DNA of 64,000 nucleotides from positions 1-64,000 of the forward strand of contig CAMCFA010000004.1 in the NCBI GenBank assembly GCA_945873955.1, read 5' to 3'. Both the position numbers and the translations under genes were made by a program. Below are positions 11,671 through 61,954 of this stretch, piece after piece (position 1 is the first letter of the stretch; each line of letters starts with the position of its first letter). Source of the DNA: an uncultured Clostridia bacterium (GTDB lineage Bacteria > Bacillota > Clostridia > Oscillospirales > Ruminococcaceae). The notes beneath the pieces are model-generated. The model saw nothing but the letters and a program-made list of their open reading frames with translations, did no database searches and was not told where the DNA came from.

Positions 11671-11710
11671 AAGCTGACCGATTATTCTACGGTCAGCTTT
11701 CTTTACTGAA
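11671..11710 (+). terminator. Terminator of the integrase/RepA transcript
   Basis: AAGCTGACCG (11671-11680), loop ATTATTCTA, CGGTCAGCTT (11690-11699), then TCTTT. Nearly identical to the hairpin at 13033-13061. Confidence 0.75.
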
Positions 11711-13032: not shown

Positions 13033-13070
13033 GAGCTGACCGATTATTCCACGGTCAGCTCTGAATTTTT
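13033..13070 (+). terminator. Terminator of the cargo gene, duplicate of the one at 11671
   Basis: GAGCTGACCG (13033-13042), loop ATTATTCCA, CGGTCAGCTC (13052-13061), then TGAATTTTT. The central 26 bases match the 11671 hairpin with one change. Confidence 0.8.
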
Positions 13071-28411: not shown

Positions 28412-29845
28412 TTATTCTTCGAACTTCATCTCAAATTTGTCCTTAGGTATCTCGTCGGGGACTTCTATCGGGTATTCCCCGGTGAAGCAGCCTGTGCAGA
28501 AATCACAGCCTGCGTTCTCGGCAATCTTCTTCACGCTGTCGGTGCTGAGGAAGCCGAGGGAATCCGCCCCTATGATCTTCGCTATCTCCTCGACGGAGTG
28601 CTTGTTCGCGATAAGATTCTCCTTGCTGTCGATGTCAGTGCCGAAGAAGCACTCGCTGATAAACGGCGGCGAGGAAATACGCATGTGTACCTCTTTAGCC
28701 CCGGCGTGGCGCAGCAGCTTTACCACCTTTGCGGAGGTAGTGCCTCTGACGATACTGTCGTCGATAAGAACCACGCGTTTGCCCTTTACCACGTCCGCGA
28801 CTGCGTTCAGCTTGATGCGCACGGAGTTTTCGCGCATACCCTGCGTCGGCTGAATGAACGTTCTGCCGATATAGCGGTTCTTTACGAACCCTACGCCGTA
28901 GGGGATACCGCTCTGCTGTGCGAAGCCCAGTGCTGCGTCCAGACCGCTGTCCGGACAGCCGATAACCACGTCCGCCTGAACAGGGTGCTCCAGCGCGAGG
29001 TAATGCCCGGCGCGGAGTCTTGCGCGGTGAACGCTCGCACCCTCGATAACAGAGTCGGGACGTGCGAAATATATGAACTCGAACACGCACATTGAGCTTT
29101 TCTGACCACAGTGAGTCTTTATGCTCTCAACGCCGTTCTCGTCTACAACTACGATCTCGCCCGGCTCGATATCCCGGACGAATTCGGCGCCGATACTGTC
29201 CAGCGCGCAGCTTTCCGAAGCGAAAACATAGCCTGCGTCGTCCGGCAGTCTGCCCAGACACAGCGGGCGAAAACCCTGCGGGTCACGCGCCGCGATGAGC
29301 TTTTTCGGCGACATTATCACAAGGGAGTAGGCTCCCTTGATCTTATACATTGCCTTTTCCACCGCCTGCTGAATTGAAGCGGTTTCAAGGCGTGCCTCGG
29401 TAATTGCGTAGGAAATGACCTCGGTATCGCTTGTGCTGTGGAAGATAGCGCCTTTCAGCTCATACTGCCTCCGCAGGTCAAGCGCGTTGATGAGGTTTCC
29501 GTTGTGGGCGATAGCAAGTGCGCCTTTCACATGGCGTACTGTCATAGGCTGGCAGTTCGCGGTGTTGACGTTCCCGGTTGTGGAGTAACGCACATGTCCC
29601 ACAGCGATCTTTCCCTGCCCGAATTCAGTCAGGGTGCGCTCTGAGAACACCTCGTTCACCAGACCCAGACCCTTGTGCGTCTTGAATACGCCGCGGTCGT
29701 TGACTACGATACCGCAGCTCTCCTGACCCCTGTGCTGAAGTGCATACAGCCCGAAATATGCTGAATGCGCCACATCGGTTGGCGTGTTGGTGTAGATACC
29801 AAATACGCCGCATTCCTCGTGTATATTACCCGACAAAGATATCAT
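28412..29845 (-). CDS. purF: Amidophosphoribosyltransferase
   Basis: 477 residues from ATG 29845, which overlaps the stop of the upstream paralogue as ATGA. An 11-residue propeptide precedes C12 (EECGVFGIY), the glutaminase nucleophile, as in the Bacillus-type enzyme. The PRPP-binding motif is VVLIDDSIVRGTTS, and C-terminal CDFCTGC supplies iron-sulfur ligands typical of this type. It catalyses the first committed purine step, PRPP plus glutamine to phosphoribosylamine. Confidence 0.97.
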   Translation of the reverse strand: MISLSGNIHEECGVFGIYTNTPTDVAHSAYFGLYALQHRGQESCGIVVNDRGVFKTHKGLGLVNEVFSERTLTEFGQGKIAVGHVRYSTTGNVNTANCQPMTVRHVKGALAIAHNGNLINALDLRRQYELKGAIFHSTSDTEVISYAITEARLETASIQQAVEKAMYKIKGAYSLVIMSPKKLIAARDPQGFRPLCLGRLPDDAGYVFASESCALDSIGAEFVRDIEPGEIVVVDENGVESIKTHCGQKSSMCVFEFIYFARPDSVIEGASVHRARLRAGHYLALEHPVQADVVIGCPDSGLDAALGFAQQSGIPYGVGFVKNRYIGRTFIQPTQGMRENSVRIKLNAVADVVKGKRVVLIDDSIVRGTTSAKVVKLLRHAGAKEVHMRISSPPFISECFFGTDIDSKENLIANKHSVEEIAKIIGADSLGFLSTDSVKKIAENAGCDFCTGCFTGEYPIEVPDEIPKDKFEMKFEE

Positions 29846-31266
29846 TCCTTTCCGTTCCAGCAGTAGCTGCAAAGCCCGCTTTCGGGAAGTCCGACAGCCT
29901 TTACCGTGCCTTCGAGGGACTGGAATTCAAGCGACGTGAGCTTTAAGCGCTTGCAGATCTCTGCACGCAGGCGCTTTCCGCGCTCGGTGTTGGTGTCGCT
30001 GTATTCGCTGATGTGCTTTACGCCCTCGTCGCCCTCAAATTCATGAATGATACGGCGGGCGATAAGGTCCATCTCTGAGTTGCTGCGGGAGAAGTTCAGA
30101 TACTTGCAGCCGTACATGATCGGCGGACATGCAGAACGCATGTGAACCTCCTTAGCCCCGTTCGCATAGAGGAACTCCACGGTTTCCCGGAGCTGAGTTC
30201 CGCGCACGATGCTGTCATCGACAAACAGGAGCTTTTTCCCCTCGATAAGCTCGTGAACGGGGATCAGCTTCATCTTTGCAACCTTGTTTCTCATGGACTG
30301 GCTCTGGGGCATGAAGCTCCGCGGCCATGTGGGGGTGTACTTTATAAATGGACGGGCGAAGGGGATACCGCTGCGGTTTGCATAGCCTATCGCGTGGGGA
30401 ACACCGGAGTCCGGAACGCCGCAGATAAAGTCAACGTCCGGCAGCGTGCCGTTCTTGATGTCATGCTCCGCCATGATCTCGCCGTTTCTGGTGCGCATGG
30501 TCTCTACCGTTACTCCCTCGTATACCGAGTTTGGGTAGCCGTAGTAGGTCCACAGGAAGGTACAGATCTTGAGGTCCTTCTGGCAGCCCTCGCTTAGTAC
30601 CTCAGCCTTTTTCGGAGTGATCTTCACGATCTCGCCCGGCAGCATTTCCCGGTAGATGTCGTAGCCCAGCTTCTGGAACGCGAAGCTCTCAAAGGAAACG
30701 CAGTAGCCGTCCTCGCGCCTGCCGATGATTATCGGCAGCCTGCCGTCCTTGTCACGGGCAGCGATGATCCCGTCCTCGGTGAGGATAAGCAGGGACATTG
30801 TTCCCTTGATCTTTTCCTGCGCGTAGCGAATACCCTCGGTAAGCGAGTCCTTCTGCGCGATAAGCGCGCCGATCAGCGCGGAGGAATTCACCTTGCCGCT
30901 GCTCATTGCCTCAAAGCTTGCGTGGGAGGTGCTTAAAAGCTCCTCGCACAGCTCGTCCGCGTTGTTGATTATGCCGATGTTGCACACCGCGTAGGTGCCG
31001 AGCCGCGATCTCAGCAGGATAGGCTGCGGGTCAGTGTCGCTTATGCTGCCTATGCAGAGGCTGCCCTCCATGCCTTCTACGTCGTTCTCAAACTTGGTGC
31101 GGAACGGCGAGTTCTCAATGCTGTGAATGCTTCTCTGGAAGCCCTTTTCGGGAGAGTAAGCAGTCATGCCGCCTCTGCGGGTCCCGAGATGTGAATGATA
31201 GTCAGTGCCGAAAAATACGTCGCTTATGCAGTTGTTATCCGACGCTGCTCCAAAAAAACCGCCCAT
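29842..31266 (-). CDS. PurF paralogue without the catalytic cysteine
   Basis: 474 residues, aligned along its length with PurF. The N-terminus reads MGGFFGAAS, so the Cys required at the mature N-terminus for glutamine hydrolysis is absent. The PRPP loop is intact (LLFVDDSIVRGTQ) as are Cys residues near the end (CPPIMYGC, CSYC) that could bind an iron-sulfur cluster. It overlaps purF by 4 bases, so the two are made together. It might use ammonia, act as a regulatory partner of PurF, or serve another pathway; the sequence does not decide. Paralogues of this kind occur in Clostridia. Confidence 0.85.
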   Translation of the reverse strand: MGGFFGAASDNNCISDVFFGTDYHSHLGTRRGGMTAYSPEKGFQRSIHSIENSPFRTKFENDVEGMEGSLCIGSISDTDPQPILLRSRLGTYAVCNIGIINNADELCEELLSTSHASFEAMSSGKVNSSALIGALIAQKDSLTEGIRYAQEKIKGTMSLLILTEDGIIAARDKDGRLPIIIGRREDGYCVSFESFAFQKLGYDIYREMLPGEIVKITPKKAEVLSEGCQKDLKICTFLWTYYGYPNSVYEGVTVETMRTRNGEIMAEHDIKNGTLPDVDFICGVPDSGVPHAIGYANRSGIPFARPFIKYTPTWPRSFMPQSQSMRNKVAKMKLIPVHELIEGKKLLFVDDSIVRGTQLRETVEFLYANGAKEVHMRSACPPIMYGCKYLNFSRSNSEMDLIARRIIHEFEGDEGVKHISEYSDTNTERGKRLRAEICKRLKLTSLEFQSLEGTVKAVGLPESGLCSYCWNGKE

Positions 31267-32157: not shown

Positions 32158-32664
32158 TCAGATCTCTTTTGCAGTTTCCTGCATTTTCTTGTCGGCAGCG
32201 AGGTTCTTCTCGTTCTGCTTCTTCTTGAATTCCAGCAGCTTGTCCGCGAGTTCAGCGTCGGACACCGCAAGAATCTCCGCTGCAAGATAGCCGGCGTTCG
32301 CCGCTGAGTCTATCCCGACGGTAGCCACGGGAACTCCCGGAGGCATCATGACAGAGCTTAACAGTGCGTCAACGCCCTCCAAAGCCTTTGCCTTGACAGG
32401 TATCGCGATCACCGGCAGGGTAGTGTTACCTGCGATAGCGCCCGCCAGATGAGCCGCCATTCCCGCAGCGGCGATTATCACACCGAAGCCGTTTTCACGG
32501 GCGTTCTGTGCGAACTCAGCCACCTCTTTAGGGGAGCGGTGCGCTGAAAGCACCCTCATCTCAAACGGGATACCGAATTCCTTTAATGCCTCCGCAGCCT
32601 TGCGGACGACCGGGAAATCGCTGTCGCTGCCCATGACGATGCCGACTTTTTTCTGTTCTGACAT
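32158..32664 (-). CDS. purE: N5-CAIR mutase, class I
   Basis: 168 residues from ATG 32664, which follows AAAGGACGG; an upstream ATG at 32682 has no ribosome site. Signature blocks GSDSDFPV, LSAHRSP and AAGMAAHLAG. It rearranges N5-CAIR to CAIR. No purK is seen in the window. It is first in the purine operon, behind a leader with a small ORF and terminator. Confidence 0.96.
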   Translation of the reverse strand: MSEQKKVGIVMGSDSDFPVVRKAAEALKEFGIPFEMRVLSAHRSPKEVAEFAQNARENGFGVIIAAAGMAAHLAGAIAGNTTLPVIAIPVKAKALEGVDALLSSVMMPPGVPVATVGIDSAANAGYLAAEILAVSDAELADKLLEFKKKQNEKNLAADKKMQETAKEI

Positions 32665-32687
32665 AATTATCCGTCCTTTCATACCCG

Positions 32688-32721
32688 AAAATAAAAATAG
32701 CTGTATGCGGAAATACAGCTA
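32688..32721 (-). terminator. Intrinsic terminator in the purE leader
   Basis: On the minus strand TAGCTGTAT (32721-32713), loop TTCCGC, ATACAGCTA (32706-32698), then TTTTTATTTT. A perfect 9-bp stem with U run, located between promoter and purE, so it can only act as an attenuator. Confidence 0.88.
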
Positions 32722-32723
32722 AA

Positions 32724-32819
32724 TTACACTTCTGCTTTCTGAATTTTGGTTGCACTTATTCTGTAAAAAGAAGCCATAATTGAGCTGAAGCGCCCGTGTA
32801 CTGAGAATACGCCCATCAT
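32724..32819 (-). CDS. Purine operon leader peptide (31 aa)
   Basis: ATG ATG at 32819 follows AAGGAG (32833-32828) by 8 bases; the ORF encodes MMGVFSVHGR-FSSIMASFYR-ISATKIQKAEV and its stop TAA overlaps the start of the terminator stem. There is no purine-linked codon run that I can see. Codons at 32787-32778 (CAGCTCAATT) are complementary at 9 of 10 positions to 32725-32716 (AATTTAGCTG), which includes the 5' arm of the terminator. Translation of the leader would therefore affect the antiterminator. No known family recognised. Confidence 0.65.
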   Translation of the reverse strand: MMGVFSVHGRFSSIMASFYRISATKIQKAEV

Positions 32820-32904
32820 CTATCATTCTCCTTACTTACAGAGTAAATGCGATATCTGCTAAAAATTGCCGTCAAACGAGGGCATGGCAGAATAACATAA
32901 TTAT

Positions 32905-32933
32905 ATTTTACTATATTATTGCCGGAATTTCAA
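32905..32933 (-). promoter_or_regulatory. Promoter of the purine operon
   Basis: On the minus strand TTGAAA (32933-32928), 17-base spacer, TAAAAT (32910-32905). The resulting leader is about 230 bases. Confidence 0.75.
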
Positions 32934-61378: not shown

Positions 61379-61954
61379 TCAGTGTCTGAAAGTGCAGCCG
61401 TCCTCAACGCTCATATCGTCGATTATCGCCAGCGATTCAACGTGGATACCCTTTGAGCGGACGAGCTCGCCGCCCTTCTGGAATCCCTTTTCTATTACTA
61501 TCCCGGCACCGGCAATGGAAGCCCCGGAGCTTCTCACAATGTCGATAAGACCGAGCAGCGCGCAGCCGTTCGCAAGGAAATCGTCTATTATGAGGATATT
61601 GTCGTCGTTGGAGAGAAAACGCTTGCTGACGATAACGTTATAGGAACGCTTATGTGTAAAGCTCTCAATGGTGGTGGAGTAAACCTCGCCGTCGATATTA
61701 ATGCTCTGCGCCTTCTTGGCGAACACCACCGGGCAGTTGAAATACTGCGCCGTAATGCAGGCAATGCCGATACCGGACGCCTCAATGGTGAGAATCTTGT
61801 TTATGCCTTTATCAGGGAAGAGCCGGCGGAATTCCTTTCCGATCTCGTTATACAGCTCAATGTCAAGCTGGTGGTTCAGGAAGCTGTCTACTTTGAGAAC
61901 GCCTCCCTCTTTAACGATACCGTCTTTTCTTATGCGATCCTCTAAAAGCTGCAT
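61379..61954 (-). CDS. xpt: Xanthine phosphoribosyltransferase
   Basis: 191 residues, normal Xpt length. N-terminal MQLLEDRIRKDGIVKEG, then TIEASGIGIA and the PRPP loop ILIIDDFLANGCAL. It converts xanthine to XMP, the substrate of GuaA. Ribosome site CGGAGG. It follows the FAD protein by 27 bases on the same strand. I looked for a purine riboswitch before it and saw none. Confidence 0.96.
   Translation of the reverse strand: MQLLEDRIRKDGIVKEGGVLKVDSFLNHQLDIELYNEIGKEFRRLFPDKGINKILTIEASGIGIACITAQYFNCPVVFAKKAQSINIDGEVYSTTIESFTHKRSYNVIVSKRFLSNDDNILIIDDFLANGCALLGLIDIVRSSGASIAGAGIVIEKGFQKGGELVRSKGIHVESLAIIDDMSVEDGCTFRH

Follow-up and report, generated by a model that had tools for sequence, protein, structure and literature searches.

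The window analysed here is a 64-kb stretch of DNA from a genome of 3.47 Mb in 172 contigs. On its minus strand lies a cluster of purine synthesis genes headed by purE, which was identified with NCBIfam TIGR01162 (201.9 bits against a cut-off of 149.6) and has an alternative in-frame ATG upstream at 32682. Between promoter and purE the leader holds a short open reading frame (ORF) with a ribosome-binding site and an intrinsic terminator (Table 1). An earlier note on this DNA had described this succession of promoter, ribosome site, 31-codon ORF, perfect 9-bp terminator and purE, and those of its coordinates that were checked on the minus strand agreed. All pairs of the terminator stem are formed (9/9, three of them G-C). 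An overlapping 35-codon ORF in another frame (MIDDGRIL...SRSVI) runs on the minus strand from an ATG at 32826 to a TAG at 32719 and ends inside the terminator arm; this ATG is an unlikely start because it lies too near the Shine-Dalgarno site, which leaves poor spacing.

Table 1. Features of the purE leader, in window coordinates
Feature	Position	Strand	Basis
Promoter, sigma-70-type, TTGAAA-17-TAAAAT	32905..32933	-	consensus scan and genus alignment
Shine-Dalgarno site TAAGGAGAA of the leader ORF	32826..32834	-	sequence; purine-rich site kept in genus alignment
Leader ORF, 31 codons, ATG 32819 to TAA 32724, MMGVFSVHGRFSSIMASFYRISATKIQKAEV (31 aa)	32724..32819	-	sequence and comparison
12-nt element AGAATAAGTGCA, consensus RGNATANNTGYA	32751..32762	-	de novo motif; enrichment and frame tests
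Putative RNA polymerase pause in the element	RNA 3' end C32752, next base A32751	-	inferred
A-rich stretch from element to terminator, including the leader ORF stop codon	32722..32750	-	base composition
Intrinsic terminator, 9-bp stem, 6-nt loop, TTTTTATTTT	32688..32721	-	scan; stem kept in genus
Terminator arms, loop and T tract	arms 32721-32713 and 32706-32698; loop 32712-32707; T tract 32697-32688	-	
purE, ATG 32664, heading the cluster purE-purC-purF-like-purF-purM-small ORFs-purN	32158..32664	-	NCBIfam, ORFs

Two other observations were made in the window. The purF-like gene directly before purF (29842-31266, minus strand) is divergent and may not encode a working amidophosphoribosyltransferase, because it scores 195 bits, under the TIGR01134 cut-off of 350. 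Near-identical, strong, terminator-like hairpins (AGCTGACCGATTATTC.ACGGTCAGCT) lie at 11672 and at 13033-13062, about 1.4 kb apart, one of them on both strands.

Purine genes in Firmicutes are controlled by ZTP, purine and PRPP riboswitches and by PurR, and none of these matched at the purE leader. Rfam models at gathering scores gave 0 matches in the 64-kb window, and the leader itself gave only two, far under threshold; a riboswitch reading of the leader was rejected on this negative result. In the 43 genomes of the genus set (that of the window and 42 others), the ZTP riboswitch was found in 0/43 and a PurR of the B. subtilis type over its curated cut-off in 0/43, with sub-threshold PurR matches in 7/43. 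The PurR model did match the window at 61484-61855 (minus strand), only over positions 112-234 of the 268 of the profile, its C-terminal part, and at 63.6 bits against a cut-off of 258.7; this stretch is probably a phosphoribosyltransferase of another kind. To this extent the Rfam, ZTP and PurR searches, which found no known purine regulator at this leader, support the earlier reading. RNAalifold on the gappy genus alignment returned no pairs, not even those of the terminator, a result that counts little. RNA motifs of 50 bacterial genomes have been surveyed in a study whose main text makes no mention of purE (PMC11109978), and a literature search that took in few subscription papers and no preprints showed, among the entries listed, no report of a leader ORF or coupled attenuator before purE.

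Leader ORF and terminator across the family

Consensus scans of the window by itself are weak, with 2 promoter-like sites against 1.4 expected and 1 terminator-like site against 0.4. It is the comparison across relatives, and not these scans, that places the attenuator layout beyond chance. The promoter proposed earlier is a case in point: it does not rise above shuffles in the window scan, although its -35 and -10 boxes are kept in the genus alignment.

A total of 144 purE loci were taken up, nine of which had no recognisable purE start and were left out (L025, L069, L076, L127, L128, L196, L199, L205 and L221). The 135 classified loci comprised 34 from the genus, 84 from the rest of the family and 17 from other families of the order, and they are part of the available purE loci, since the family search alone found purE in 171/197 genomes. 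For classification, an ORF was called only if its stop lay between -25 and +30 relative to the terminator arm; the arms of L004 and L101 were placed by hand where the script had chosen another hairpin. An ORF together with a terminator was found at 33 of the 34 genus loci, the remaining one having a terminator only. Among the 84 family loci outside the genus, 52 had both, 7 a terminator only, 15 a weak or distant terminator, 3 none, 5 a ZTP-like sequence and 2 a short leader. The 17 loci from the order divided into 6 with both, 1 with a terminator only, 2 with a weak or distant terminator, 2 with none and 6 with a ZTP-like sequence. Of 35 class-level and named loci, a single one (L158) had both, 10 were ZTP-like, 6 had a terminator only, 16 had neither and 2 had no recognisable purE start. 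The ZTP-like sequence before purE (5/84, 6/17 and 10/35) was called with a regular expression, without an Rfam check. Given its presence elsewhere, a coupled attenuator may replace the ZTP riboswitch in the family to which the window belongs.

A stricter test was applied to 78 non-redundant leaders, defined as having a terminator and no ZTP-like match and thinned at 65% identity. The ORF had to start with ATG, follow a Shine-Dalgarno site of at least 4 nt, span at least 18 codons and stop no more than 15 nt from the terminator arm. Such an ORF was present in 57/78 leaders (genus 13/17, family 40/54, order 4/7), against about 1.4 expected from dinucleotide shuffles of the leader (0.3, 1.1 and 0.0, respectively). 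The comparison indicates that the leader ORF and its position are under selection. In 68 of the 70 ORFs called with stops from -25 to +30 (genus 16/16, others 52/54), no more than 13 nt separate the end of the stop codon from the terminator arm that follows, or the two overlap. The terminator stem is likewise kept as its letters change, from AGCTGTAT/ATACAGCT in the window's genome to AGCCGTATTT/AAGTACGGCT in others, with T-A becoming C-G on both sides of one stem pair. Leader peptides differ widely between genera. Judged across these genomes, the attenuator-like leader is real and recurs across the family.

Two genus leaders stand apart. In L103 (genome G034) the leader ORF seems to break off a few codons after its start, and the 12-nt element described below is altered, with terminator and purE kept; this makes L103 a natural variant on which loss of the switch could be examined. 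L101 (genome G019) has an insertion of ~25-30 nt in the terminator loop, its arms being otherwise conserved.

The earlier note had further proposed that the position of a ribosome on the ORF selects between the terminator and an antiterminator, formed by pairing of CAGCTCAATT (32787-32778) with AATTTAGCTG (32725-32716). The complementarity at 9/10 bases does exist in the window's genome, our script finding a 9/10 pairing two bases shifted from these positions, and 13/300 shuffles of the window leader also reach 9/10. In the near relatives L002, L003, L005 and L006 the best 10-nt complementarity is 7, 7, 8 and 7, respectively, and falls at other places. Over 70 leaders it averages 7.13, against 6.98 in shuffles. 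Comparison with relatives therefore contradicts this antiterminator, which we regard as extremely improbable. The same conservation check finds that the ORF and the terminator are kept and the antiterminator pairing is not. The more general claim, that translation of the ORF decides termination, is most likely correct; the antiterminator route to it is unsupported. Nor is an antiterminator needed, since a ribosome at a stop codon so near the terminator would itself cover the 5' arm.

A leader ORF and terminator before a biosynthetic operon are also what the attenuators of trp/his type possess, in which scarcity of a charged tRNA stalls the ribosome and thereby selects an antiterminator. The purE leader differs from these in having no dominant codon, no excess of antiterminator pairing over the 70 leaders and a stop that adjoins the terminator. 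Among 2,246 leader residues no amino acid dominates, the highest ratio over random ORFs being 1.86 (Lys), and the terminators of amino-acid attenuators are described as lying >20 bp from the leader gene (PMC4824070), opposite to the distance seen here. Attenuation by an amino acid is accordingly very unlikely at this locus. In the same 70 leader ORFs, Lys, Ala, Phe, Gly and Cys occur at ~1.5-1.9 times, and Asp, Glu, Trp and Pro at ~0.4-0.6 times, their frequency in random ORFs of equal base composition; this skew perhaps reflects selection for unhindered translation.

A 12-nt element in the leader

An unsupervised motif search in 62 leaders returned the 12-nt motif R G N A T A N [GT] T G [CT] A, positioned within the leader ORF or shortly 3' of its end. 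At a score of at least 10, and no more than 90 nt from the terminator, the element occurs in 47/78 leaders in sense orientation, in 1/78 in antisense and in 1/77 in an equal window farther upstream. The motif matrix was trained on the 62 leaders, so that only the 22 leaders fetched after its derivation serve as an independent test; in these the element was found in 9/22, compared with 0/22 in antisense and 1/22 upstream.

The element goes together with the ORF, as 47/70 leaders with an ORF carry it and 0/8 without one (54/70 and 2/8 at a score of 8). It scores below 10 in 31/78 leaders, 23 of which have an ORF. Within the genus, L009 and L103 have damaged elements, and L103 is also without a called ORF. 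Counted from the start of the ORF, the presumed pause base (Table 1) is at 53-68 nt in 15 genus leaders (median 56; 68 in the window) and at 42-149 nt in 31 leaders from elsewhere (median 99). Its distance to the terminator arm has a median of 22 nt in the genus and 11 nt elsewhere.

These counts bear on a plainer account of the leader, without any regulation by purines: the terminator would brake transcription partially and to a constant degree, and the only effect of translating the ORF would be to protect the leader. The leaders with an ORF and no clear element (23/70) would fit such a brake. Against it stand the tracking of the ORF by the element, the biosynthetic nature of the operon and the frequent ZTP-riboswitch-like sequences at the same place in other lineages (6/17 in the order, 10/35 at class-level and named loci, by regular expression only). 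We consider a fixed brake improbable.

Outside the genus the element falls into all three frames of the ORF, in the ratio 13:9:9 (31 leaders, p = 0.60); relaxing the threshold gives 16:11:12 and tightening it 9:4:5. In the genus it is read in one frame in 28/34 leaders, mostly as [GR]-I-x-A (YRISA in the window, YGISA elsewhere). In these 28 leaders the third codon is AGT in 16, TTT in 7, GTT in 4 and ATT in 1, so that the wobble T is fixed as the residue varies, and the fourth is GCA in 28/28. In three further genus leaders (L030, L092 and L093) the frame of the element is shifted and the ORF stays open. The mixed frames, the fixed wobble bases and the differing peptides together argue that selection keeps a 12-nt nucleotide element, and translation to a certain place, rather than a peptide. 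It is translation of the leader ORF that would matter, not the sequence of its product.

The same data speak to arrest by a nascent peptide, in which Y-G-I-S-A (Y-R-I-S-A in the window) would stall the ribosome on a purine ligand. This was first suggested by FYRISA and YYGISA in relatives, and it draws on the single frame of the 28/34 genus leaders, which gives [GR]-[IT]-x-A, on frame 0 being slightly the commonest outside the genus too, and on the resemblance of some letters to the SecM arrest motif as available descriptions give it. It was dropped after the frames and wobble positions had been counted: wobble positions are fixed where residue 3 varies, frames are mixed outside the genus, and the three genus leaders with a shifted frame keep their ORF open. 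Peptide arrest is therefore quite improbable.

A regulon was sought with the pattern RGNATARKTGYA and rejected: the window's genome has 28 sites of it, against 13 of the reversed pattern, and the purE site alone is followed within 100 nt by a terminator scoring at least 13.

Coupling of polymerase and ribosome as a proposed reading of the leader

Comparison of sequences establishes the leader ORF, the placing of its stop at the terminator, the terminator itself, and an element that is independent of the reading frame. What follows is an account of how these parts might work together.

The element resembles a site at which RNA polymerase would pause. The elemental pause signal has been given as G-10 Y-1 G+1 (PMC12288461), and escape from it is described as limited by NTP binding (PMC6336406). 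In our motif, G-10 has a weight of 0.78 and Y-1 of 0.99, and position +1 is A (0.93) rather than the G (0.06) of the elemental consensus; the strongly kept A-T at -8/-7 does not belong to that consensus. G-N8-YG, the generic pattern, was not enriched in two sets of leaders (18/23 and 36/39, against 18.9 and 34.1 in shuffles). A search for a pause hairpin, crude in that the script often returned no hairpin, gave no sign of one: mean energies were -3.7 in 19 genus leaders (shuffles -4.0) and -5.6 in 29 others (shuffles -5.1). We regard the element as a putative RNA polymerase pause. The fraction of A in the 20 nt before the terminator arm is 0.48 in the genus, 0.36 in other genera and 0.36 at 52 control terminators; the A-rich stretch as a family-wide ATP sensor was rejected, since other genera equal the controls.

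It is hypothesized that the leader is a switch that senses the speed of RNA synthesis. RNA polymerase would transcribe the first 68 nt of the leader ORF and halt in the 12-nt element, and a ribosome loaded on the ORF would meanwhile close the gap to the paused polymerase. When purine nucleotides are scarce, the polymerase would be slow to add the A that follows the pause and slow across the stretch beyond it. The ribosome would then be right behind, at the stop codon that touches the terminator, where it would cover the 5' arm, so that no hairpin forms and purE is transcribed. When purines are plentiful, the polymerase would outrun the ribosome, the hairpin would form and transcription would end before purE. 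Readthrough at low purine, as proposed here, would have the right sign for a biosynthetic operon. We infer both what the switch would read, the supply of ATP or of purine nucleotides, and the sign of its response.

Measurements in E. coli are described in which a terminator is nearly fully repressed when the stop codon lies a few bp upstream and is near its maximum beyond ~30 bp (PMC4824070). Since the stop of the purE leader abuts the terminator, the leader appears to be built in the pyrBI way. The distance curve of pyrBI is given as steep and as set by pause sites, and without pause sites a ribosome is considered unlikely to reach the polymerase in the first 100 bp (PMC4824070); for this reason a leader ORF so short should need a pause site. 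Two of the four defining features of pyrBI/pyrE-type attenuation, the geometry of ORF, stop and terminator and the independence from peptide sequence, are found here by comparison. The other two are a pause ahead of the terminator that responds to the nucleotide made by the pathway, for which the conserved pause-like element with A at +1 is a candidate, and readthrough that increases as this nucleotide runs short.

The likeness to E. coli pyrBI (pyrL), as far as it is described in the sources cited, extends to a short translated ORF, an intrinsic terminator that a close ribosome can block, pause sites that set the coupling and an operon for nucleotide synthesis (PMC3641672, PMC4824070, PMC5021804), pausing at the purE leader being putative. 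In pyrBI a short ORF with a U-rich stretch is reported, and UTP alters the coupling (PMC3641672, PMC5021804). The purE leader has the conserved 12-nt element in place of the U-rich stretch, and its ORF usually ends at the terminator, whereas the pyrBI ORF contains it. The systems differ also in that pyrBI and pyrE are pyrimidine operons of Proteobacteria and the operon studied here is a purine operon of Clostridia. In the pyrE attenuator the ORF ends near the terminator, and the purE leader is closer to pyrE than to pyrBI. The Salmonella mgtCBR leader ORF mgtM is another relative, described as a short ORF with adenines and a peptide that is not conserved, at which ATP is proposed to alter coupling (PMC3641672). 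According to the same account, high ATP raises expression there through alternative stem-loops; at the purE leader, the proposal is that expression rises at low purine because the intrinsic terminator is blocked directly.

We consider it somewhat probable that the purE leader attenuates transcription of its purine operon in the manner of pyrBI/pyrE, by coupling to translation. The leader-ORF half of the earlier reading stands and its antiterminator half falls. More tentatively, it may be an ATP-reading attenuator for purine synthesis in a family of Clostridia, and not a riboswitch: a conserved A+1 pause element and an arbitrary leader ORF would together gauge how much purine is available, by way of the gap between polymerase and ribosome. 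Such a switch would mirror pyrBI on the purine side and would need no ligand-binding RNA or protein.

A serious rival, though an unlikely one, keeps the same coupling geometry and has the element recruit or bind a factor, as ops does RfaH or as an RNA-protein site would; this factor would carry the signal in place of nucleotide supply. The ops element, at which RfaH acts, is 12 nt long and strand-specific and coincides with a pause in the leader of an operon. In this respect the RfaH/ops and LoaP systems resemble the purE leader, which likewise has a 12-nt strand-specific element (47 against 1 of 78) at a putative pause; the letters of the element differ. A binding site would account for the letters that are fixed without being part of the pause consensus (A-T at -8/-7, A at +1) and would fit the finding that, among the 28 sites of the related pattern in the window's genome, the purE site alone has a terminator of that score close downstream. 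That genome also has two NusG-like matches (92 and 87 bits), from which we deduce a second NusG-type protein. On the other side, a NusG paralog of LoaP grade, over the NF033641 cut-off, is found in 0/43 genus genomes, and the sub-threshold NF033641 matches in 39/43, in many only one, are presumably the housekeeping NusG.

E. coli already offers an example of coupling-based nucleotide sensing for pyrimidines, and mgtC one for ATP. If the coupled attenuator proposed here is correct, sensing of nucleotides through transcription-translation coupling would also be a lineage-wide control of purine synthesis in Clostridia. Polymerase and ribosome would then be coupled at the purE leader in a lineage of Firmicutes, a debated point, as B. 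subtilis is reported to be largely uncoupled. The conserved element would in that case be a direct reporter for coupling in this Firmicutes lineage.
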